From positions 1-24,868 of the IMG/VR virus record IMGVR_UViG_3300023284_000329: DNA of 24,868 nucleotides; one strand, written 5' to 3'. Made by a program: the position numbers and the translations under genes. The notes beneath the pieces were generated by a model. It worked only from the letters and a program-made list of their open reading frames with translations, ran no database searches and had not been told where the DNA came from. Below, piece after piece: positions 1,168-24,639 of the stretch (positions are counted from its first letter, which is position 1; every line of letters begins with the position of its first letter). Origin of the DNA: a virus.

Positions 1168-1383
1168 TTACTTAAAAAAACTCTCACTATCAGAATGCGG
1201 CTTGTTTAGCGCTTCAATCCAATGATGTTGGTGTATAGGCTTATCCCAGCGATTAATAAGCATAATATCACCCCCGAAATTAAACCATGCCCACTTGTCA
1301 GGATGACTCGCCATACCCTTGTAAGTTCTAGGCCATTTATTTACGTGATTAACACACCAGTCAATTGCTTGTTTCCTATTCAT
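1168..1383 (-). CDS. Small hypothetical phage protein, Trp-rich (71 aa)
   Basis: The function is not recognised. The protein is 71 residues with six Trp and several His, beginning MNRKQAIDWCVNHVNKWP, a composition common among small phage accessory proteins of unknown role. There is no membrane segment. The ATG at 1383 is preceded by AGG about 8 nt upstream. A promoter-like element with TATTGTGTTTAA (minus strand, 1424-1413) lies just upstream and would give a leader of about 28 nt, so it is probably transcribed alone rather than as the end of the tail operon. Its stop directly abuts the stop of the convergent Mu F-like gene. Confidence 0.6.
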   Translation of the reverse strand: MNRKQAIDWCVNHVNKWPRTYKGMASHPDKWAWFNFGGDIMLINRWDKPIHQHHWIEALNKPHSDSESFFK

Positions 1384-1412: not shown

Positions 1413-1443
1413 TTAAACACAATATACATTAGAATAAACGTAA
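1413..1443 (-). promoter_or_regulatory. Promoter/operator-like direct repeat upstream of the 71-aa gene
   Basis: Read on the minus strand, the half-sites TTACGTTTAT (1443-1434) and TTGTGTTTAA (1422-1413) repeat with a 21-bp period, the second lying in TATTGTGTTTAA. The arrangement and spacing match the element at 20694-20724. The -10-like hexamer would be TATTGT or TATATT. No good -35 hexamer is visible, so activity may depend on a regulator. Confidence 0.5.
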
Positions 1444-1455: not shown

Positions 1456-1695
1456 ATGGATTTACAGATGCTTACCCAAGAATGTAGAGCGAGACAAAAG
1501 CAAGCTGAAGCGGAAATGTTAGAAGTAGAAAAAAAATATAATAGAGCTAGCATATTATATTCTATAGCCAAAGTTATTTGGCAAAGACTATCAAATACAA
1601 GAAAAAATCAAAAAATTTGTGATGAGAGAAAAAGACACTGCGAAGCAATGTCTTTAACTGTTGATCAAGATGATGATGATGATGATGAATATTAA
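1456..1695 (+). CDS. Small coiled-coil protein with poly-Asp tail (79 aa)
   Basis: The function is not recognised. The protein is charged and predicted to be mostly helical, with heptad-like character over residues 8-60, and ends in a run of Asp encoded by a GAT microsatellite (1668-1688). ATG 1456 has little upstream Shine-Dalgarno sequence. ATG 1468, preceded by GGA 7 nt upstream, is an equally good start and would remove four residues. The stop TAA (1693-1695) overlaps the stop of the convergent tail fibre gene (1694-1692). Coding potential is supported by fit between neighbours more than by homology, so confidence is moderate. Confidence 0.5.
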   Translation: MDLQMLTQECRARQKQAEAEMLEVEKKYNRASILYSIAKVIWQRLSNTRKNQKICDERKRHCEAMSLTVDQDDDDDDEY

Positions 1696-4123: not shown

Positions 4124-5614
4124 TTACCTTATATTGCTGTTGGTATGTAATTTGTGGATCCCAATTTCTGACATGTTCACAATCTCTTTTCCCTTGTCAG
4201 ATGTAAACCCTATGCAACTAACACCAAAAGAATGGCACACTGCAACATCAGTTGGATCAGCTAACCAGTCAGATAATGATTTAGATAACACTGGTTGCCT
4301 ATTTGAACCAAGTGATAGTTTTCTTAATGTTTCCAAATCGACTATATTTGCCAGAGGAGTATTCGAGGCCAAAGACAAACCACATTGATTATCTAATCCT
4401 TTAATCGTAATTAAGTCAGCTATAAAAAAAGATGAATAGGTAACACTATTTGACATTTTGTATTTTTTAACTAGATCCGTCATTATTTTAAATTTAGCTG
4501 TTGTTAAAACTCCGTAATTTTTCATCTCTAATTCAAGTTTAACGCCTCGTGCAGCAGCAGCTTTAATTATATCCTCTAATGTTGGTATTCTTACACCTTC
4601 TTCATATATTGTACCAATAGTTCTATCGAATTTAACGGCTTGTAATTGTGCAAAAGTTAATGATGTTACTGTGCCGGTGCCATCTGTTAAGTCGTCTATC
4701 GTTTGATCATGAATCAGAACAGCTACATTGTCTGAAGATATTTGAACGTCTGCTTCCCAAAATGTTTTATTTACTGGGTTTGTAGTTTTTTGCGCCCCAG
4801 TAAAAGAAAGTAACGTATTTTCTGGAAAATGAGTAGCTAAACCTCTGTGTATTGATGTTTCCCAATCAGTAGTGAAAGCATCTGATCCAAATGTTGGAAA
4901 AAATACATCATATTTAGGGCTTATATTCGGGATAAATGCGGCTTGTCTTAATGTAATTATGTATCCTAAAACTATCGTGTCAGTCTCAGAATAAGGAACA
5001 TTAAGTGTTTCTAGCCTTACCTCTTGACCAATTAGTTTAAATTCAACCCCGTTAACATCATATACTTTGGCTGTGTTTACATCTACAGTCCCAGCATTCC
5101 CAATGACAGTAAATCCAGTGGCACCAAATATCCCACCAAAATTATCACCTGAAAAAATACCATCTTCAGTAGTGATTATTTTTGCATCAACAAGATCAGC
5201 AGTTAATACACTAGAAATCATATCAAATGACACCGATGATATTGTTATTACTGTGACAGGCTCAACGAAATCAAGATCAGGCGTCGCACCTACTATAAAT
5301 GGTAATGTAGTGGTAACTTTTGGTTTATACGCAGTTCCAGAAAAAACCATAAACTGATTAAATCCGGTGAAAATTTGCCCGGTATCCCATATGCCGTCGT
5401 TTATTGCAGTTATTGTATAATTAGATTCTAGCTGTGTTAAGGTATTTAATTGATTGCCAAGTCTATTAATTACCACATCAGTTGAATTTACGACTAGATC
5501 TATAGTTGATGAATTACAAGCTAATGCATTTGCGCTAGTTGTGCCTAATGTTTCGGCTTTAGAGTCTGCGCACGAGGTAGCTACGTCTGTGCAATCTGTA
5601 CTTTCACAAGCCAT
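4124..5614 (-). CDS. Tail protein with glycerophosphodiester phosphodiesterase (GDPD) domain
   Basis: This is a virion tail protein predicted to hydrolyse glycerophosphodiester bonds, so it may process a glycerophosphate-containing surface polymer or lipid headgroup during adsorption. Residues 1-120 are the same attachment module as in the protein at 1692-3287. After a linker, residues about 253-490 match the GDPD TIM barrel: IHRG near 255-258, PENT near 265, WEADVQ near 287, LIHD near 301-304 followed by LTDGTGTVTSLT, then IPTLEDII and LELEMKN near 360. The catalytic His pair and acidic metal ligands known in the family are all present, so it looks active. AAGGA precedes ATG 5614. The N-terminus is Cys-rich (four Cys in the first 15 residues), which is unusual for a phage fibre. 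Confidence 0.85.
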   Translation of the reverse strand: MACESTDCTDVATSCADSKAETLGTTSANALACNSSTIDLVVNSTDVVINRLGNQLNTLTQLESNYTITAINDGIWDTGQIFTGFNQFMVFSGTAYKPKVTTTLPFIVGATPDLDFVEPVTVITISSVSFDMISSVLTADLVDAKIITTEDGIFSGDNFGGIFGATGFTVIGNAGTVDVNTAKVYDVNGVEFKLIGQEVRLETLNVPYSETDTIVLGYIITLRQAAFIPNISPKYDVFFPTFGSDAFTTDWETSIHRGLATHFPENTLLSFTGAQKTTNPVNKTFWEADVQISSDNVAVLIHDQTIDDLTDGTGTVTSLTFAQLQAVKFDRTIGTIYEEGVRIPTLEDIIKAAAARGVKLELEMKNYGVLTTAKFKIMTDLVKKYKMSNSVTYSSFFIADLITIKGLDNQCGLSLASNTPLANIVDLETLRKLSLGSNRQPVLSKSLSDWLADPTDVAVCHSFGVSCIGFTSDKGKEIVNMSEIGIHKLHTNSNIR

Positions 5615-8585: not shown

Positions 8586-8620
8586 TTGACGTTATGTTTA
8601 ATAACTGATATTGTCTTTAA
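8586..8620 (+). promoter_or_regulatory. Sigma-70-type promoter with direct-repeat motif for the two + strand genes
   Basis: TTGACG at 8586-8591, a 17-bp spacer, and TATTGT at 8609-8614 form a good sigma-70-like promoter. Half-sites TTATGTTTAA (8592-8601) and TTGTCTTTAA (8611-8620) repeat with a 19-bp period, matching elements found upstream of other accessory genes in this window. It would drive 8669-9180 against the direction of the tail operon. Confidence 0.7.
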
Positions 8621-8668
8621 ACAAAGCAAGTAGTTACCATGAATTGTATTTAACAGGGAGCAGTGAAC

Positions 8669-8878
8669 ATGATTAATATATGGATCTATAACACCGGGTT
8701 AGATTTTTTCGGAAACCCAGATCTTATTTTATTGAGTAAGATTCACAACAATAAGCCGCCAAAAGTTAGCTGTAAGTGGCAATTGGTAGAATCAAGGCAA
8801 TTAAATTTAATTACTTGTGATGAAGATATACTCACACAATCTAAAGAAATTCAACATAAATATGAAGGTATGATATGA
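8669..8878 (+). CDS. Small hypothetical accessory protein (69 aa)
   Basis: The function is not recognised. The protein starts MINIWIYNTGLDFFGNPDL and has no membrane segment or clear motif. ATG 8669 is chosen over GTG 8663 because GGGAG at 8656-8660 stands 8 nt before the ATG but only 2 nt before the GTG. It has its own promoter at 8586-8614 and overlaps the next gene by ATGA. The pair is a two-gene accessory (moron-like) insertion on the opposite strand between the DUF1833-like and NlpC/P60 tail genes, which are usually adjacent in related tail modules. Confidence 0.7.
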   Translation: MINIWIYNTGLDFFGNPDLILLSKIHNNKPPKVSCKWQLVESRQLNLITCDEDILTQSKEIQHKYEGMI

Positions 8879-9180
8879 AAACAGTAAAAAAAGAAGTAAC
8901 TCTTTATGTGAGCGCACATAAAAACCCTTGGAATAAAAAATTCATTCTCGATATCCACACGTTCAAACAAGAAAGCATGAATGGAGGTATTCATATAAAT
9001 TTTAATGAAGTCACAGTTGAAATTGACGTTCCAGACATTACTGGTATTGATTTTAATGAAATTGAAATAGACGAGATCGAAAAAATAAAATCCAAATATC
9101 TTGCAGAGGTCGAAATTAAAACAAGAAGTTTAGATGAACAAATACAAAATTTAAAAGCATTAACATTTTTAGGTGATTAA
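8875..9180 (+). CDS. Hypothetical accessory protein (101 aa)
   Basis: The function is not recognised. The N-terminal part (residues 1-55) looks like a small beta domain with VTLYVSAHKNPWNKKFIL, and residues about 55-95 form a charged helix with heptad-like spacing, ending in LKALTFLGD. It is translated from ATG 8875, which overlaps the stop of the preceding gene, with AAGG just upstream. Its stop TAA (9178-9180) overlaps the stop of the convergent - strand gene (9179-9177). There is no hairpin here, so the two opposing transcripts must run into each other. Confidence 0.7.
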   Translation: MKTVKKEVTLYVSAHKNPWNKKFILDIHTFKQESMNGGIHINFNEVTVEIDVPDITGIDFNEIEIDEIEKIKSKYLAEVEIKTRSLDEQIQNLKALTFLGD

Positions 9181-13537: not shown

Positions 13538-13690
13538 TTAATAAACATCTGTAAACCTACAATTTAGTAGAGTAATCGAAACTCTAATGCTTATAACAGC
13601 ATTAACAAACTGTGGCGCTTTCTTTTCGCTGATATCTTTAAAGATGCGCTTCATGTTGTCTTTTACTGTTTTGGCTCCAGACACTGGCAT
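13538..13690 (-). pseudogene. Truncated copy of the HK97 gp10-like neck gene
   Basis: The first 35 codons match the N-terminus of the intact gene at 14675-15133 (MPVSGAKTVKDNMKRIFKDI...). The nucleotide match covers 13590-13692 against 15033-15135 with two differences seen in 103 bp. After that the frame runs 15 unrelated codons to TAA at 13540-13538, giving a 50-aa product. The conserved part lacks the beta domain needed for neck assembly, so it is most likely a remnant. It follows the 82-aa gene as the intact copy follows the gene at 15133-15312. Confidence 0.8.
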
Positions 13691-13696
13691 TAACGT

Positions 13697-13945: not shown

Positions 13946-13954
13946 TCTTCACCT

Positions 13955-14078
13955 CTAAGTTAACACCATAACATCATCAGTTTGCTTTCCACCATCCTGC
14001 AACTTTCCAACACGAACAAATTCAATGCCCGTTACATTTGTCGGGTCGGCTTGTGCCGTATTATCACCTAATGCAATC
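13955..14078 (-). pseudogene. 3' remnant of the head-tail adaptor gene
   Basis: The last 41 codons of the adaptor gene at 15648-15998 are repeated here, ending in the same VMVLT and TAG. The nucleotide match covers 13953-14078 against 15646-15771 with five differences seen in 126 bp. The frame is closed by TAG just upstream of the match and no start codon or ribosome site is present, so it is not translated on its own. Confidence 0.85.
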
Positions 14079-14674: not shown

Positions 14675-15133
14675 CTAGACCTTAAATATATCCTCTGCTC
14701 TCTTGATTAACGCAACACTTTCAGAATCTTCAAATCCTCTATTTAAAAACCTAGGTCTTGCTTGCATATTGGTTGCTGGTGCCCCTGGTCTTGATTGCGT
14801 TATTACTCTAAGGTCATTAGATCGTCCACCTTTAATTTCATACTTAGGCAATGGCTTTGGCTTCCATAAAGGCGTATATGTTTCTGTGCCGTTCAAATAC
14901 ACCGCATAATTAGCATTATATACAACGGAACCAGTAACCATGCCACTACTGATATTAACATCTGTTATTATGCTATTTATTAGATTTGAATAGGCAATTG
15001 GTGTTAATTCTTTGGCGTGATTAACACCGATACTTATAACAGCATTAACAAACTGTGGCGCTTTCTTTTCGCTGATATCTTTAAAGATGCGCTTCATGTT
15101 GTCTTTTACTGTTTTGGCTCCGGATACTGGCAT
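14675..15133 (-). CDS. HK97 gp10-like tail completion / neck protein
   Basis: This 152-aa protein belongs to the HK97 gp10-like family that completes the neck between head and tail. The family pattern is seen: AKELTPIAYSNLINSI near residues 39-54, SGMVTGSVVYNANYAVYLNGTE near 62-83, and QARPRFLNRGFEDSE near the C-terminus. It overlaps the upstream 59-aa gene by TAATG and precedes the tail terminator gene by 1 nt. Its first 35 codons are duplicated as a remnant at 13590-13690. Confidence 0.85.
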   Translation of the reverse strand: MPVSGAKTVKDNMKRIFKDISEKKAPQFVNAVISIGVNHAKELTPIAYSNLINSIITDVNISSGMVTGSVVYNANYAVYLNGTETYTPLWKPKPLPKYEIKGGRSNDLRVITQSRPGAPATNMQARPRFLNRGFEDSESVALIKRAEDIFKV

Positions 15134-15312
15134 TACTCAATAATATCCCATCTAAAAGATTTTATATCATCTAAATTAATAAGGATATTTGATTTTTCAT
15201 CAATTGGTTTTAATAATAAAAATTTATTAATTTGATAGTCGTGAGTATTTCTAACTGTAATATTCCTGATTTCTCCATTATTAAATTCTATTGAGTATTT
15301 AAATTTATTCAT
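15133..15312 (-). CDS. Small hypothetical protein (59 aa)
   Basis: The function is not recognised. The protein starts MNKFKYSIEFNNGEIRNITV, contains DYQINKFLLLKP, and ends IKSFRWDIIE; it looks like a small beta/alpha domain. It is well supported as a gene: AAGGG lies 6 nt before ATG 15312, the ATG overlaps the stop of the preceding gene (ATGA), and its stop overlaps the start of the neck gene (TAATG). In the duplicated copy of this region (13.6-14.0 kb) it is absent and replaced by an 82-aa gene. Confidence 0.7.
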   Translation of the reverse strand: MNKFKYSIEFNNGEIRNITVRNTHDYQINKFLLLKPIDEKSNILINLDDIKSFRWDIIE

Positions 15313-15635: not shown

Positions 15636-15647
15636 AATTACCTCTCT

Positions 15648-15998
15648 CTAAGTTAACACCATAACATCATCAGTTTGCTTTCCACCATCTTGCAACTTAC
15701 CAACACGAACAAATTCAATACCCGTTACATTTGTGGGATCGGCTTGTGCCGTATTATCACCTAATGCAATCGGGCTGTTGAGCGCAGGAACCCCATTAGC
15801 AGTTAATTCATACCAATAGATAGACTTGGGTATAAATGCATTGCCTTGTGAATCGTTGTATTGCTTGGTTGCTCCCTGTTCGAAATTTACCTTTTCAGTG
15901 AAAGGCGTTCCGTAAGTAATGCCAGTAAACTGATCTGTTCCGGTAATAGGCCAGATTGTTACTATTTTTTTTGCGCCTCTTCTTGTTGGTCTAGTCAT
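15648..15998 (-). CDS. Head-tail adaptor protein
   Basis: This small (116 aa) beta-rich protein sits between the connector and the gp10-like gene, the usual place for the stopper/adaptor. It starts MTRPTRRGAKKIVTIWPITG and contains TGITYGTPFTEKVNFEQG and the C-terminal VGKLQDGGKQTDDVMVLT, consistent with the small head-tail joining protein fold. ATG 15998 is chosen; an in-frame TTG at 16013 would add five residues. It overlaps the upstream Cys-rich membrane protein gene by 8 nt. The last 41 codons are duplicated at 13955-14078. Confidence 0.7.
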   Translation of the reverse strand: MTRPTRRGAKKIVTIWPITGTDQFTGITYGTPFTEKVNFEQGATKQYNDSQGNAFIPKSIYWYELTANGVPALNSPIALGDNTAQADPTNVTGIEFVRVGKLQDGGKQTDDVMVLT

Positions 15999-17615: not shown

Positions 17616-18032
17616 TTAAAGTGTATCAATCAACATTTTTGAATATTTATTCCATCTTTCTAAGCGAGGAACCAATACATACACACACTGATAATTTACT
17701 TCGTGTTTAATTGATGTCGGGTGCATCCTGCTACCGTTAACGACTTCAAACGCAGCAAGAAAAGCTTTTTTAGATGGATTTCGTGTATTATTTTTGTTAT
17801 AAATTTTAATGTAATCATCAACTGATTTGCTTTTAGTCCAGGCAATTAAAGAATCAAATCTTTCATTTATTTTTTTTAAAAACTTATCTACCGCGTCACG
17901 ATCAGTTGCTTTTTTTTGTTCAACATCATTAAACAAAAAATCAATAGTATTGGCAATAGTTTCATCTTTTACGCTAGGTCTAATAAGCTCTAAATGAAAG
18001 ACTTTGCATATTTCAAACTGCTTGGGAGTCAT
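17616..18032 (-). CDS. Hypothetical helical protein (138 aa), first gene of the neck/lysis unit
   Basis: The family is not recognised. The protein starts MTPKQFEICKVFHLELI and is mostly helical and basic, with KKINERFDSLIAWTKSKSVDDY and a C-terminal YVLVPRLERWNKYSKMLIDTL. There is no membrane segment. ATG 18032 is preferred because AGAG stands 7 nt upstream; the longer frame to 18068 would begin inside the promoter region. Its promoter (TTGCAA-17-TATTGT on the minus strand) shares a -35 with the divergent + strand operon at 18151, so the gene may be controlled together with, or opposite to, those accessory genes. Confidence 0.65.
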   Translation of the reverse strand: MTPKQFEICKVFHLELIRPSVKDETIANTIDFLFNDVEQKKATDRDAVDKFLKKINERFDSLIAWTKSKSVDDYIKIYNKNNTRNPSKKAFLAAFEVVNGSRMHPTSIKHEVNYQCVYVLVPRLERWNKYSKMLIDTL

Positions 18033-18050: not shown

Positions 18051-18118
18051 TTTTAAATACAATACCATTTTAATCTTTGTGTTGCAAGTTGTGTTTAATT
18101 ACGGTATTGTGTTTAAGA
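18051..18118. promoter_or_regulatory. Symmetric divergent promoter pair sharing one palindromic -35
   Basis: TTGCAA at 18082-18087 is its own reverse complement. On the + strand it is followed by a 17-bp spacer and TATTGT (18105-18110). On the - strand the same hexamer is followed by a 17-bp spacer and TATTGT (18064-18059). The flanking arms GGTATTGTATTTAAAA (minus, 18066-18051) and GGTATTGTGTTTAAGA (plus, 18103-18118) match at 14 of 16 positions. The + side also has the direct repeat TTGTGTTTAA at 18089-18098 and 18107-18116 (18-bp period). It drives 18151-19283 to the right and 18032 onward to the left. Confidence 0.7.
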
Positions 18119-18150: not shown

Positions 18151-18393
18151 ATGACTTACAAGACAGATGAGATGAGAAAACAGATAAATAAATCAATACC
18201 AAATGGAGAAAAAAAGGATAAATTAATTGTTTATCTGGATGAATTGATATCATTTGGCCTCGATGATGATGAAATAACAACAAAACTTTTAGAACATACA
18301 GAATTACAAGTTTCAAACTTTAAACTTAAAACGATAGCGTTAACATTATCAGTTTGCGCATTAATTGTATTTCTAAATTGGATGATGAAATAA
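18151..18393 (+). CDS. Small tail-anchored membrane protein (80 aa)
   Basis: The function is not recognised. Residues 1-60 are charged and helical (MTYKTDEMRKQINKSIPNGE, then KLIVYLDELISFGLDDDEIT), and residues about 60-78 form a C-terminal membrane segment (TIALTLSVCALIVFLNW). ATG 18151 has AAGG 8 nt upstream and lies about 35 nt after the predicted transcript start; the longer open frame to 18004 crosses the promoter and is rejected. The stop overlaps the next start (TAATG at 18391-18395), so the two are co-translated. Confidence 0.65.
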   Translation: MTYKTDEMRKQINKSIPNGEKKDKLIVYLDELISFGLDDDEITTKLLEHTELQVSNFKLKTIALTLSVCALIVFLNWMMK

Positions 18394-19283
18394 TGAGTGA
18401 TATTAATTGGGATGATACAAAATTTGATTTTGCAATTAGGTTTAGGTATAATAAAACTAATGATCTTATGAATTTTTTGCTAGAAAAACCGGAGTTGATT
18501 AATGGATTTTATATTGCTATAGATTCTAATAGTTGCAATAGGCTATATAATTCTCTCTTTTGGACGTTATGCGAAAGGCCAAAAAAAGAAGATGTTGAAA
18601 TTATCCATAAAAATAATACATGTGATATGTCATTCTACAATCATGAAACTATTTCGGTAGTATTAACTCAAGGAGAAATGGAACAAATCATGACTGGTGC
18701 AAAAGTTTATCCCAGTGTTATTGACATTTCAGTTGAAAAAGTATGGCAAAAACCGCCTGAATTAAAACCAACCTACACCAAAGCAATGCACGAAGCTGGA
18801 GAGTTGCCGCCTGTTGGTGTAATTGTTTCCTATGCTTACAATAAAGATTTTCTAGTTTCAGATTTTTGTAAAGACTGGGTTGATGGTGATGAATTGGAAG
18901 TAGTAGCCCATAGTGGAGGCTTTACAAGTAAAATAAATGATATAGCTGTATTCAGACATAATGATGGAATAAATATGTCATTGATTTGTAAGCTATATAA
19001 ACCATTGCCAATAAAAACCGATGAAGAAGTAGCATACGAAGATTTTATGGAAAACAGACACGTATTAGGAACCACTGAGCCATTATTTCATGCCGGATCA
19101 AAATTCGCCCAAAGCAAAAACGCTGAAAACATAAAGCGTGCTTATGATAATGGTAAGAAAAAAGGATACGAAGACAAAGAGTCGTTAATTCTAAAAAACT
19201 TATTGGAGGAATACGCAATCACTGGCAATGATATCTATGATTTAATTGTGAGTAAAATTTTAAAACTCGAAATTAATAATTAA
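18393..19283 (+). CDS. Hypothetical accessory protein with a PPVG-type small domain (296 aa)
   Basis: The full-length family is not recognised. The central part, about residues 125-215, has KAMHEAGELPPVGVIVSY, then WVDGDELEVVAHSGG and YKPLPIKTDEE, a pattern found in several unrelated phage accessory proteins as a small beta-barrel of unknown role. The N-terminal 120 residues are unknown; the C-terminal 60 are helical and basic. ATG 18393 overlaps the preceding stop; an upstream in-frame TTG at 18354 is not needed. It is the last gene of a + strand accessory operon, closed by the hairpin at 19289-19303. Confidence 0.7.
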   Translation: MSDINWDDTKFDFAIRFRYNKTNDLMNFLLEKPELINGFYIAIDSNSCNRLYNSLFWTLCERPKKEDVEIIHKNNTCDMSFYNHETISVVLTQGEMEQIMTGAKVYPSVIDISVEKVWQKPPELKPTYTKAMHEAGELPPVGVIVSYAYNKDFLVSDFCKDWVDGDELEVVAHSGGFTSKINDIAVFRHNDGINMSLICKLYKPLPIKTDEEVAYEDFMENRHVLGTTEPLFHAGSKFAQSKNAENIKRAYDNGKKKGYEDKESLILKNLLEEYAITGNDIYDLIVSKILKLEINN

Positions 19284-20687: not shown

Positions 20688-20724
20688 TTTGCATTGCGTT
20701 TAATTTATGTTATATTGCGTTTAA
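20688..20724 (+). promoter_or_regulatory. Promoter with direct repeat of TTGCGTTTAA
   Basis: TTTGCA (20688-20693), a 17-bp spacer, and TATATT (20711-20716) form a plausible sigma-70 promoter. TTGCGTTTAA occurs exactly twice, at 20694-20703 and 20715-20724, 21 bp apart (two helical turns), with the second overlapping the -10. It reads into the gene at 20747. Confidence 0.7.
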
Positions 20725-20746: not shown

Positions 20747-21007
20747 ATGACAGACTTTAAATTTAACTTAGGCTCGATATTAAAAGATAAAATAACAGGC
20801 TTTCAAGGAGTGGTCACTTCAAGAACTGAATGGCTAAATGCGTGCAATGTTTATGGGTTGCAATCAATGAAATTAAAAGAAGATGGCACCGTGGGGGAAA
20901 GGCAGCATTTTGATCAACCTCAACTTGAACTTATTGAAGATGGTGTATTTGCGCCAACTAGAGAAACAGGTGGTCCAGCAAGTTCAATACCTATGACGAA
21001 CAGATAA
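20747..21007 (+). CDS. Conserved small protein with ITGFQG motif (86 aa), function unknown
   Basis: The pattern FNLGSILKDKITGFQGVVTSR, NACNVYGLQ and HFDQPQLELIEDG is that of a small beta-barrel family I recall in many phages and proteobacterial prophages, without a known function. GGAA stands 6-7 nt before ATG 20747. It is a single-gene + strand unit with its own promoter (20688-20716) and a hairpin terminator (21021-21036), inserted between the capsid unit and the following - strand structural genes. It is probably an accessory gene. Confidence 0.75.
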   Translation: MTDFKFNLGSILKDKITGFQGVVTSRTEWLNACNVYGLQSMKLKEDGTVGERQHFDQPQLELIEDGVFAPTRETGGPASSIPMTNR

Positions 21008-22929: not shown

Positions 22930-24639
22930 TTATTTCTCCCCGCCTGGCATTTTCATATCGAGTCTGTCAGATTCTTGGTTGTTATGCTGGTATTGTGCAC
23001 CGCCAGTGTTAAATGCTGCAACACCATTTTTGGCCAAAACATCTTTACAGGAATTAACGCCCATAACTTTTGCCACATCTTCGGTAAGTCCAATATCAAG
23101 GTTAACGACTTGTTTTGCTAACTCGTTTAATTCTTTGTCTGAATTTGTATTGATGTCAGATTGCATTTTATCAAGTCTGTCACCTAATGAATTAATGGCT
23201 GACAAAACCTTATCATCACCACTGTTAGATTTAGGTTCTACTGTTTTTTTCTTTTTCTTTCTTTTTAGGATTTCTTCTTCCGTTAATCCTTCATCGTCTT
23301 TGTGAAGCTTATTATATGCTGTCAAGATCGCATCATCGTCTAAATTTTCCGTTTTTACACCTGCGGCATTTAATGCCTGAATGAGTTTTTTTCGCATAAC
23401 GCGATCTCCGTTGTCATTAGTAAATTTTTTGTATTCTACCACACGTTCAACTTCTGTGCGTTCACCGATAAAAACGATCTCGTCATCAGTCATTGCGTAT
23501 GATTGTCTAAATAGTGTACCACCATCAGCACGATATACAAAATAGGTATCAAAAACATCAATTGGCCAAAAGTGTCTATCACCATCGGAACGGCCTTCAT
23601 TTAGTTTTTCACGTATCTTGTCACTGATGTTGTCATGACTCAATTCATGTTTGTCATTGGTGAATAATGATTTTATTACATTCCATGTTTTAGATAACAC
23701 GCCATCTTTATTTGCTGCAAATCTCTGATTATACTTTTCAGCATTATCATTATTAACAGCGGATTCAATGGGTGATTTAACAGCGTGTGGCACTCCGTCG
23801 ATAATGTCGGCAAATAACCCCGTATAACTACCGAATGAATCTACATTTGTTTGATCGAAGTTTAAGAAAAATTTACGGAAGTTTGTACTAGGCTTTGTTT
23901 CGCTATTTGTGAACTTCTTTATTCTATTTAATGCGGCTGATTCATTCCATGTAAAGCTCTTGGGTGCCAATGGCAAGCTCATTGCCGGGGTTGATGCGTT
24001 ATTGAATAATTCTGCTATATCGGTATCCAATTCATTGCCGTCAACATCAATGGCGCTGTTAGTGTTTAGACCAATACCTTCAATTTTATTCTTTGCCCCT
24101 GATTCGTTTGGTAAAAATGCAATATGGTCTAGGCATAGGTTAGAAGCAACTCCTGTGAATGGTTCACCATCACTACCGAAACCCTCTACATCTTCAACGT
24201 TTAAATAAAATGCTGTTGATACGTCGATTGCTTCACCAGCGTTTATAGCATCAATTATCTGTTTGCCGTTTGCGCTTGTATTTGCGAATACCGGATCAAT
24301 GGCAACATCTGAAATAAGTCGATCATCCTTGATGGAGAAGTTAAACGCAAATGCACCGACAAAGTTACTCATTAATGCCAACGGGTCAGATGCACTTATA
24401 AACTCGCCGTTATCGCCAAGCGGGTGACTTGATGGCATAACAACACGCTTATTGCCCAATGAATTAGATAGCGATTGCGTTTCAGCCATTGGGTAATGAA
24501 TTTTATTCATTACAGCATCACCAATCATGTGAGCGACGCCCGATATGATAATATGCTCTTTATCTCGCACATTCTTGCGGCTTATGCGGTCTTTGTTTAT
24601 CGTTAATGTGTTTCTGGCTTGTAGTAGTCGTTTTGGCAT
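22930..24639 (-). CDS. Prohead protease/scaffold fusion, DUF2213 family
   Basis: This protein is predicted to cut the scaffold and capsid during head maturation. Residues 1-195 are the DUF2213 protease: VVMPSSHPLGDNGEF with His72, IDVSTAFY (138-145, candidate catalytic Ser/Thr) and DHIAFLP (171-177). About residues 290-400 hold a separate domain, SHDNISDKIREKLNEG then WPIDVFDTYFVYRADGGTLF and VFIGERTEV, which recurs in other phage proteases of this family. Residues 405-569 are helical, with an acidic and Lys-rich linker, a heptad region (LSAINSLGDRLDKMQSDINT) and GVNSCKDVLAKNG, as in a scaffold. At 569 aa it is long for DUF2213 alone, supporting fusion. The AAGGG ribosome site is in the hairpin just upstream. 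Confidence 0.85.
   Translation of the reverse strand: MPKRLLQARNTLTINKDRISRKNVRDKEHIIISGVAHMIGDAVMNKIHYPMAETQSLSNSLGNKRVVMPSSHPLGDNGEFISASDPLALMSNFVGAFAFNFSIKDDRLISDVAIDPVFANTSANGKQIIDAINAGEAIDVSTAFYLNVEDVEGFGSDGEPFTGVASNLCLDHIAFLPNESGAKNKIEGIGLNTNSAIDVDGNELDTDIAELFNNASTPAMSLPLAPKSFTWNESAALNRIKKFTNSETKPSTNFRKFFLNFDQTNVDSFGSYTGLFADIIDGVPHAVKSPIESAVNNDNAEKYNQRFAANKDGVLSKTWNVIKSLFTNDKHELSHDNISDKIREKLNEGRSDGDRHFWPIDVFDTYFVYRADGGTLFRQSYAMTDDEIVFIGERTEVERVVEYKKFTNDNGDRVMRKKLIQALNAAGVKTENLDDDAILTAYNKLHKDDEGLTEEEILKRKKKKKTVEPKSNSGDDKVLSAINSLGDRLDKMQSDINTNSDKELNELAKQVVNLDIGLTEDVAKVMGVNSCKDVLAKNGVAAFNTGGAQYQHNNQESDRLDMKMPGGEK

Follow-up and report, generated by a model that had tools for sequence, protein, structure and literature searches.

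In phage lambda, Cro and CI act at divergent promoters whose control sites overlap, and the system is self-regulating. The MotA boxes of phage T4 lie at one position and in one orientation, and in L5-type phages a repressor bound to a stoperator halts elongation. The stoperators of L5 and other cluster A phages are asymmetric 12–13 bp sites found at some twenty or more places in the genome, and reversed sites do not work (PMC9283540). The operator of KorA, GTTTAGCTAAAC, overlaps the −10 (PMC2680271), while ArdK recognises repeats close to the −35, both inverted and direct, the direct ones overlapping the −35 (PMC9723621).

Here we analysed a 24,868-base uncultivated virus record, IMGVR_UViG_3300023284_000329 (the window), a fragment that covers about half of a phage. 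Gene annotation identifies its content as the structural half of a siphovirus, with protease-like, decoration and capsid genes (24639-21394), a tape measure (12246-10210) and a tail J-like protein (8139-5626). The closest named capsid is that of Pseudoalteromonas phage H103 (57% identity). Small opposite-strand genes break up the structural operon, a layout common to H103, XCL1123, C7, pYD21-A and LP.1. A further tail protein, at 4124-5614(-), has a phosphodiesterase-like stretch at residues 252-493. Two blocks, 13580-13692 (113 nt) and 13953-14078 (126 nt), are 95–96% identical to 15023-15135 and 15646-15771 and copy the starts or ends of these neighbouring genes, thus the 13.5-14.1 kb region has the look of a partial duplication that has decayed, or of a mixed assembly.

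The promoters of several opposite-strand genes carry a 12 bp element, RTTRYGTTTAAT. We consider it likely that, in a group of mostly uncultured phages, this element serves as operator for a transcription regulator that the phages themselves encode. The regulator is most likely a repressor, and most likely the product of the gene at 17616-18032(-). In layout the L5-type stoperators come closest, since their sites also lie in promoters and short intergenic gaps and probably serve one phage regulator. However, stoperator orientation follows transcription, whereas here both orientations relative to the downstream gene are used and the sites lie on promoter cores; moreover, L5-type phages are temperate and we found no tyrosine integrase here. 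KorA and ArdK are closest in likely fold and in operator placement. A GTTTA core is common to GTTTAGCTAAAC and the refined motif (PMC2680271), but the KorA operator is palindromic while RTTRYGTTTAAT is asymmetric, and ArdK-type operators have 3–6 bp spacers whereas the repeats here start 18–27 bp apart. In contrast to PapB, FocB, KorA and ArdK, the candidate regulator has its helix-turn-helix at the C-terminus of a different helical N-terminal part, and it has no significant sequence match to them. Its membership in the PapB/KorA (TrfB)/ArdK group or in an L5-type system is not established. With Cro and CI the locus has in common divergent promoters with overlapping control sites and, as we propose, self-regulation and early shut-off, but it differs in its asymmetric sites over many promoters, in its protein and in that no lysogeny module was found. 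With MotA it has in common a phage motif joined to a host-type −10, but with four placements and two orientations.

The preliminary description of the window had reported pairs of a direct repeat, TTGYGTTTAA, upstream of 20747(+), 18151(+), 8669(+) and 1383(-) with periods of 21, 18, 19 and 21 bp. All coordinates were re-read, and the pairs lie where they were described with exactly these periods; the element is real. Upstream of 20747(+) we found two exact copies, both TTGCGTTTAA: the first (20694..20703(+)) follows the −35-like TTTGCA at 20688-20693, and the second (20715..20724(+)) overlaps the −10 TATATT at 20711-20716. The two exact copies upstream of 18151(+), both TTGTGTTTAA, lie right after the −35 (18089..18098(+)) and over the −10 TATTGT at 18105-18110 (18107..18116(+)). 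Upstream of 8669(+), TTATGTTTAA (8592..8601(+)) follows the −35 TTGACG at 8586-8591 and TTGTCTTTAA (8611..8620(+)) overlaps the −10 TATTGT at 8609-8614, each with one mismatch; a third, weaker copy in the leader, TTGTATTTAA (8644..8653(+), one mismatch), was absent from the earlier list. For 1383(-), the first copy, TTACGTTTAT (1434..1443(-)), has two mismatches to TTGYGTTTAA and fits the refined motif, and the second, TTGTGTTTAA (1413..1422(-)), is an exact match that overlaps the −10 TATATT (1426-1421); both also fall on the predicted divergent promoter of 1456(+). The single copy described before 18032(-), TTGTATTTAA, is present at 18053..18062(-), where it overlaps the −10 TATTGT (18064-18059) of the candidate regulator's own promoter, and similar sites occur at the regulator promoters of relatives. 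Promoter placement analysis likewise bears out the overlap of the downstream copies with the −10 (TATTGT or TATATT), and the upstream copies immediately follow a −35-like hexamer at 17-bp spacing. The extended −10 boxes described for the structural promoters at 24639 (TGCTATACT) and 13303 (TGTTACAAT) are also seen in the sequence, and neither promoter has the element in the window.

The genes under the element are mostly small, and phrog_16275, phrog_2479 and phrog_34288, which three of them match, are families without an annotated function. They are 18151..18393(+) (80 aa, no family match), followed by 18393..19283(+) (296 aa, a weak phrog_3483 match and relatives in the related phages G001-G004); 20747..21007(+) (86 aa, phrog_16275); 8669..8878(+) (69 aa, no family match), followed by 8875..9180(+) (101 aa, phrog_2479); and 1168..1383(-) (71 aa, phrog_34288), from which 1456..1695(+) (79 aa, relatives in G001 and G003) diverges. 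The only serine recombinase gene found among the relatives lies in an opposite-strand island of G002 (G002:C1:16203-16604(+); PF00239, E 1.5e-37) and may encode an invertase.

Since a megablast of the whole window against named phages gave no match, and so no close named relative at the DNA level, relatives were sought via protein, and 90 loci were collected by tail and capsid protein alignments. The relatives used were G001 (47.5 kb), G002 (47.9 kb), G003 (48.2 kb) and G004 (17.8 kb), which have many proteins in common with the window, mostly at 35–75% identity. All four carry the element. An unsupervised 9-mer search of gene upstream regions ranked TGTGTTTAA at the top, and pooling the sites from the window and G001-G004, the only sequences used for training, gave the refined asymmetric 12 bp motif RTTRYGTTTAAT, with 74 intergenic sites. 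Its density in these five sequences is 2.2–6.2 per kb between genes and 0.13–0.30 per kb inside genes. The motif is therefore not equally common inside genes, the result that had been named as refuting the element, but 8–39 times denser between them. Each of the 47–48 kb genomes has 15–22 intergenic sites. A further relative, L012, whose tail proteins are 60–64% identical, carries a perfect pair in the island syntenic to window 8669, in the order TTGACA, TTGTGTTTAAT, then TATTGTGTTTAAT, with a −10 of TATTGT. L012 was the only true relative in a first pattern scan of viral contigs, which returned mostly another lineage. Eleven loci of this apparently unrelated lineage (L003-L005, L007-L010 and L013-L016) have tandem 17–21 bp units around CCTAYTGCGTTTAA; many of these arrays adjoin a 403-aa terminase-like gene and are possibly a packaging or partition site.

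A dedicated DNA-binding regulator, proposed earlier from the repeats, is supported by comparative genomics, and the candidate is the 138-aa product of 17616..18032(-), which has a predicted C-terminal helix-turn-helix and is conserved with the motif-bearing phages. In the window the gene reads away from the 18151 promoter, which bears the repeats, and G001, G002 and G003 have kept the gene. Plain searches neither found the gene in eight named genomes nor, with the G003 regulator as query, gave a match among named phages. When the search was based on an alignment, however, 15 of 33 records proved to carry the family, among them H103, XCL1123, H40/1 and TW1, an isolated Pseudoalteromonas phage. 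Except in some long forms, the regulator is divergent from an island gene with the element on both sides of the gap. Two loci found via the regulator protein alone (L132 and L133) both have a motif pair beside the gene. Three unnamed viral proteins match the 138-aa product over its full length, phrog_23168, a family without an annotated function, is matched by 8 of the 11 members of the regulator alignment, and phrog_10566 touches the members in G007 (E 0.0024) and G014 (E 0.0057).

AlphaFold2, run with 11 relatives, predicted an all-helical protein (mean pLDDT 94.7) whose last three helices form a helix-turn-helix; a model of the C-terminal part placed these at 10-20, 25-31 and 36-59 (pLDDT 91.7). 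In a fold search the isolated C-terminal 60 aa mostly resembled DNA-binding helix-turn-helix domains, all with E-values above 1. FocB had the highest TM-score among the matches listed (0.66, Foldseek E above 1), and KorA and ArdK complexes with operator DNA were among the matches, again with E-values above 1. There was no single significant fold or sequence match to a known regulator (Foldseek E above 1), a Pfam search with the 11 members gave no match to a regulator, and profile searches of solved structures by sequence returned nothing useful. In a profile comparison with the PapB-like pair of G004 and G008 the family aligns in register, a match that is no more than suggestive (hhalign probability 34%, P 4e-4). 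Judged from sequence comparison, the 17616-18032 product is probably the protein that binds the element. As other candidates, the PapB-like gene of G004 was rejected because it is missing from G001-G003, and the HU-like protein of G001 because its conservation does not extend to G002 or G003.

Motif enrichment follows the regulator gene in a comparison of 27 genomes and fragments. Test genomes with short-form or TW1-type regulators have 1.5–5.2 intergenic sites per kb (TW1 4.7, G012 5.2, G009 3.2, G007 2.5 and G014 1.5, the last a weak enrichment, p = 0.015), and 12 genomes without the gene have 0–0.46 (Mann-Whitney p = 8e-4; the genomes are related and not independent, so the co-occurrence statistics are inflated and this p-value is no clean probability). 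Genomes with the long-form regulators of the H103 type are intermediate, at 0.6–2.1 sites per kb with AATTAATTAA as the dominant word; the motif is not clear in these long forms, for which a change of specificity would have to be assumed. A Robiginitomaculum MAG phage contig has neither the regulator gene nor motif enrichment despite many structural proteins at 45–60% identity. A distant tail J-like relative lies within a 954-kb bacterial contig of Gilliamella apicola ESL0177, so a prophage of the window's type may exist there; both the regulator gene and motif enrichment were looked for in this contig and neither was found.

The most telling link between the element and the regulator gene is the covariation of base 6 of RTTRYNTTTA with the regulator subgroup. 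This base is G in the window type (58 intergenic and 10 genic sites), A in the TW1 type (TW1 and G012; 22 intergenic and 3 genic) and T in G007 and G009 (14 intergenic and 3 genic), in agreement with the unsupervised k-mers. These results bear on whether the element, while being an operator, is read by some other binder, either a phage protein encoded outside the window or an exploited host regulator. The window does cover only about half of the phage, and a PapB-like regulator is present in G004 and G008. However, PapB-like genes are absent from G001-G003 and an HTH_3 repressor was not found there; the identity of base 6 depends on which subgroup of the 17616-18032 family a phage has; and the 12 related phages without the gene lack the motif, an absence that a host regulator would not readily explain. 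We regard another binder as unlikely.

Each site was placed relative to the best-scoring predicted σ70-type promoter of the downstream gene, all −35 and −10 boxes in this analysis being predictions. Sites in plus orientation cluster right behind the −35, starting 17–18 bp ahead of the −10 (10 cases), and on the −10 itself, starting 1–3 bp into it (16 cases). Sites in minus orientation start 37 bp before the −10 and end just upstream of the −35 (11 cases), and others cluster in the spacer at −11 to −16 relative to the −10. Both orientations are thus used and the element has four placements: after the −35, over the −10, upstream of the −35 and in the spacer. Placement was similar in genomes outside the motif training. 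The island promoters of the window are of a plus-plus type. In the replication regions of G001 and G003 several promoters are minus-minus (in G001, for example, those ahead of exonuclease VIII and an HU-like gene), and further promoters are flanked by one minus and one plus site. Neighbouring sites of the same orientation are mostly 18–27 bp apart, most commonly 21.

This geometry changes several points of the preliminary description. A period of 18–21 bp is about two helical turns, which would put the copies on roughly the same face of the DNA and not on two adjacent faces. The restriction of the element to accessory genes holds inside the window but fails in the complete relatives, where it occurs at the exonuclease VIII, HU-like and regulator promoters; the regulator's own promoter, covered by the element, points in the structural direction. 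The use of both orientations over the core promoter fits a repressor operator better than an activator box or a promoter class. A separate promoter class serving accessory or middle genes, recognised by a MotA-like activator or by a modified RNA polymerase, would account for most copies lying on the promoter core at positions preferred by each orientation, and some of the −35 boxes are weak (TATACA, TTTGCA). Nevertheless we consider it very unlikely, because the element is used in either orientation, because its four placements around ordinary −35 and −10 boxes include the −10 itself, the spacer and the stretch upstream of the −35, and because a good −35 and a good −10 hexamer, at 17-bp spacing, are present in many of these promoters.

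Other motifs were compared with the element. A phage-specific −35/−10 style (TAGTTGACA in AsC4_1, TTAATTAAT in H103, GTGTAAAGT in pYD21-A) is not a sufficient explanation here because the sites occur in both orientations. DnaA boxes, compared by eye, did not fit, and the λ CII-type TTGC-N6-TTGC flanks the −35 whereas the repeats are 18–21 bp apart and downstream of the −35. Several of these phages have elements of their own. The early promoters of Vibrio phage pYD21-A have this layout with a word of their own, GTGTAAAGT, which follows the −35 or overlaps the −10, and the phage lacks a regulator of the 17616-18032 type. In Aeromonas phage AsC4_1, TAGTTGACA forms an extended −35 in about ten upstream regions, and the upstream regions of H103 and XCL1123 share AATTAATTA, often immediately ahead of the −35, as well as AAGAGGGTT close to the ribosome-binding site.

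The number of copies was compared with 200 shuffled versions of the window in which genic and intergenic blocks each retained their dinucleotides. The whole window has 6 exact copies of TTGYGTTTAA against 0.43 expected; the sixth, at 24341-24350(-), lies inside a gene, and the other 5 fall in the 1,826 intergenic bases, where 0.04 were expected and no shuffle gave more than 1. Pairs 15–25 bp apart with at most two mismatches number 5 against 0.03 expected. A chance likeness among −10 regions rich in A+T, or the common descent of a few promoters that were copied, is hardly credible even though A+T makes up 64% of the window and TATTGTGTTTAA includes a −10, because the shuffles fall so far short, reversed sequences gave 1–10 matches per sequence against 9–33 for the motif, and the element is kept in relatives at about 35–75% protein identity while its flanks differ.

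The regulator locus has a further conserved feature. Its divergent promoters have −35 hexamers that overlap by 4–6 bp in 10 of 10 loci, this pair being the best-scoring in seven and among the top predictions in the others. The overlapping sequence is the palindrome TTGCAA in six loci and TTGACA/TTGTCA in three; in the window TTGCAA at 18082..18087 is common to the predicted promoters of 18151(+) and 18032(-). From these arrangements we infer a mechanism for the 17616-18032 product as repressor. The bound protein would sit over the −35, the −10 or the spacer between them in σ70-type promoters of the ordinary kind, many of which carry two sites 18–27 bp apart. The regulator promoter, with one site, and the 18151 promoter, with two, appear to share a −35, and two polymerases could hardly sit on both together, which would make the promoters mutually exclusive. 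Through the site at its own promoter the regulator would limit its own synthesis, and with its rising level it would silence the early and island promoters genome-wide but leave on the structural promoters at 24639 and 13303, neither of which has the element. We found no tyrosine integrase in eight relatives, whose records may be incomplete, and no HTH_3 repressor in G001-G003. This favours a Cro-like early shut-off over a lysogenic repressor, and we consider shut-off the more likely of the two.

In the open-access literature we found no earlier account of the motif, of the function of the protein family or of how the opposite-strand small genes are controlled. With rather less assurance than for the operator itself, we think it probable that phrog_23168 and its relatives are a new family of phage master regulators, with asymmetric operators that work in both directions genome-wide, a conserved bidirectional promoter with a shared −35 and a subgroup specificity set by one base. 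If so, neighbouring phages have separate regulatory codes. One regulator with a readable 12-bp code would explain the control of scattered opposite-strand genes and what an unannotated family of proteins does, and sequence alone would be enough to mark the regulon of an uncultured phage. The change of one base between subgroups would make the co-evolution of regulator and operator directly testable.
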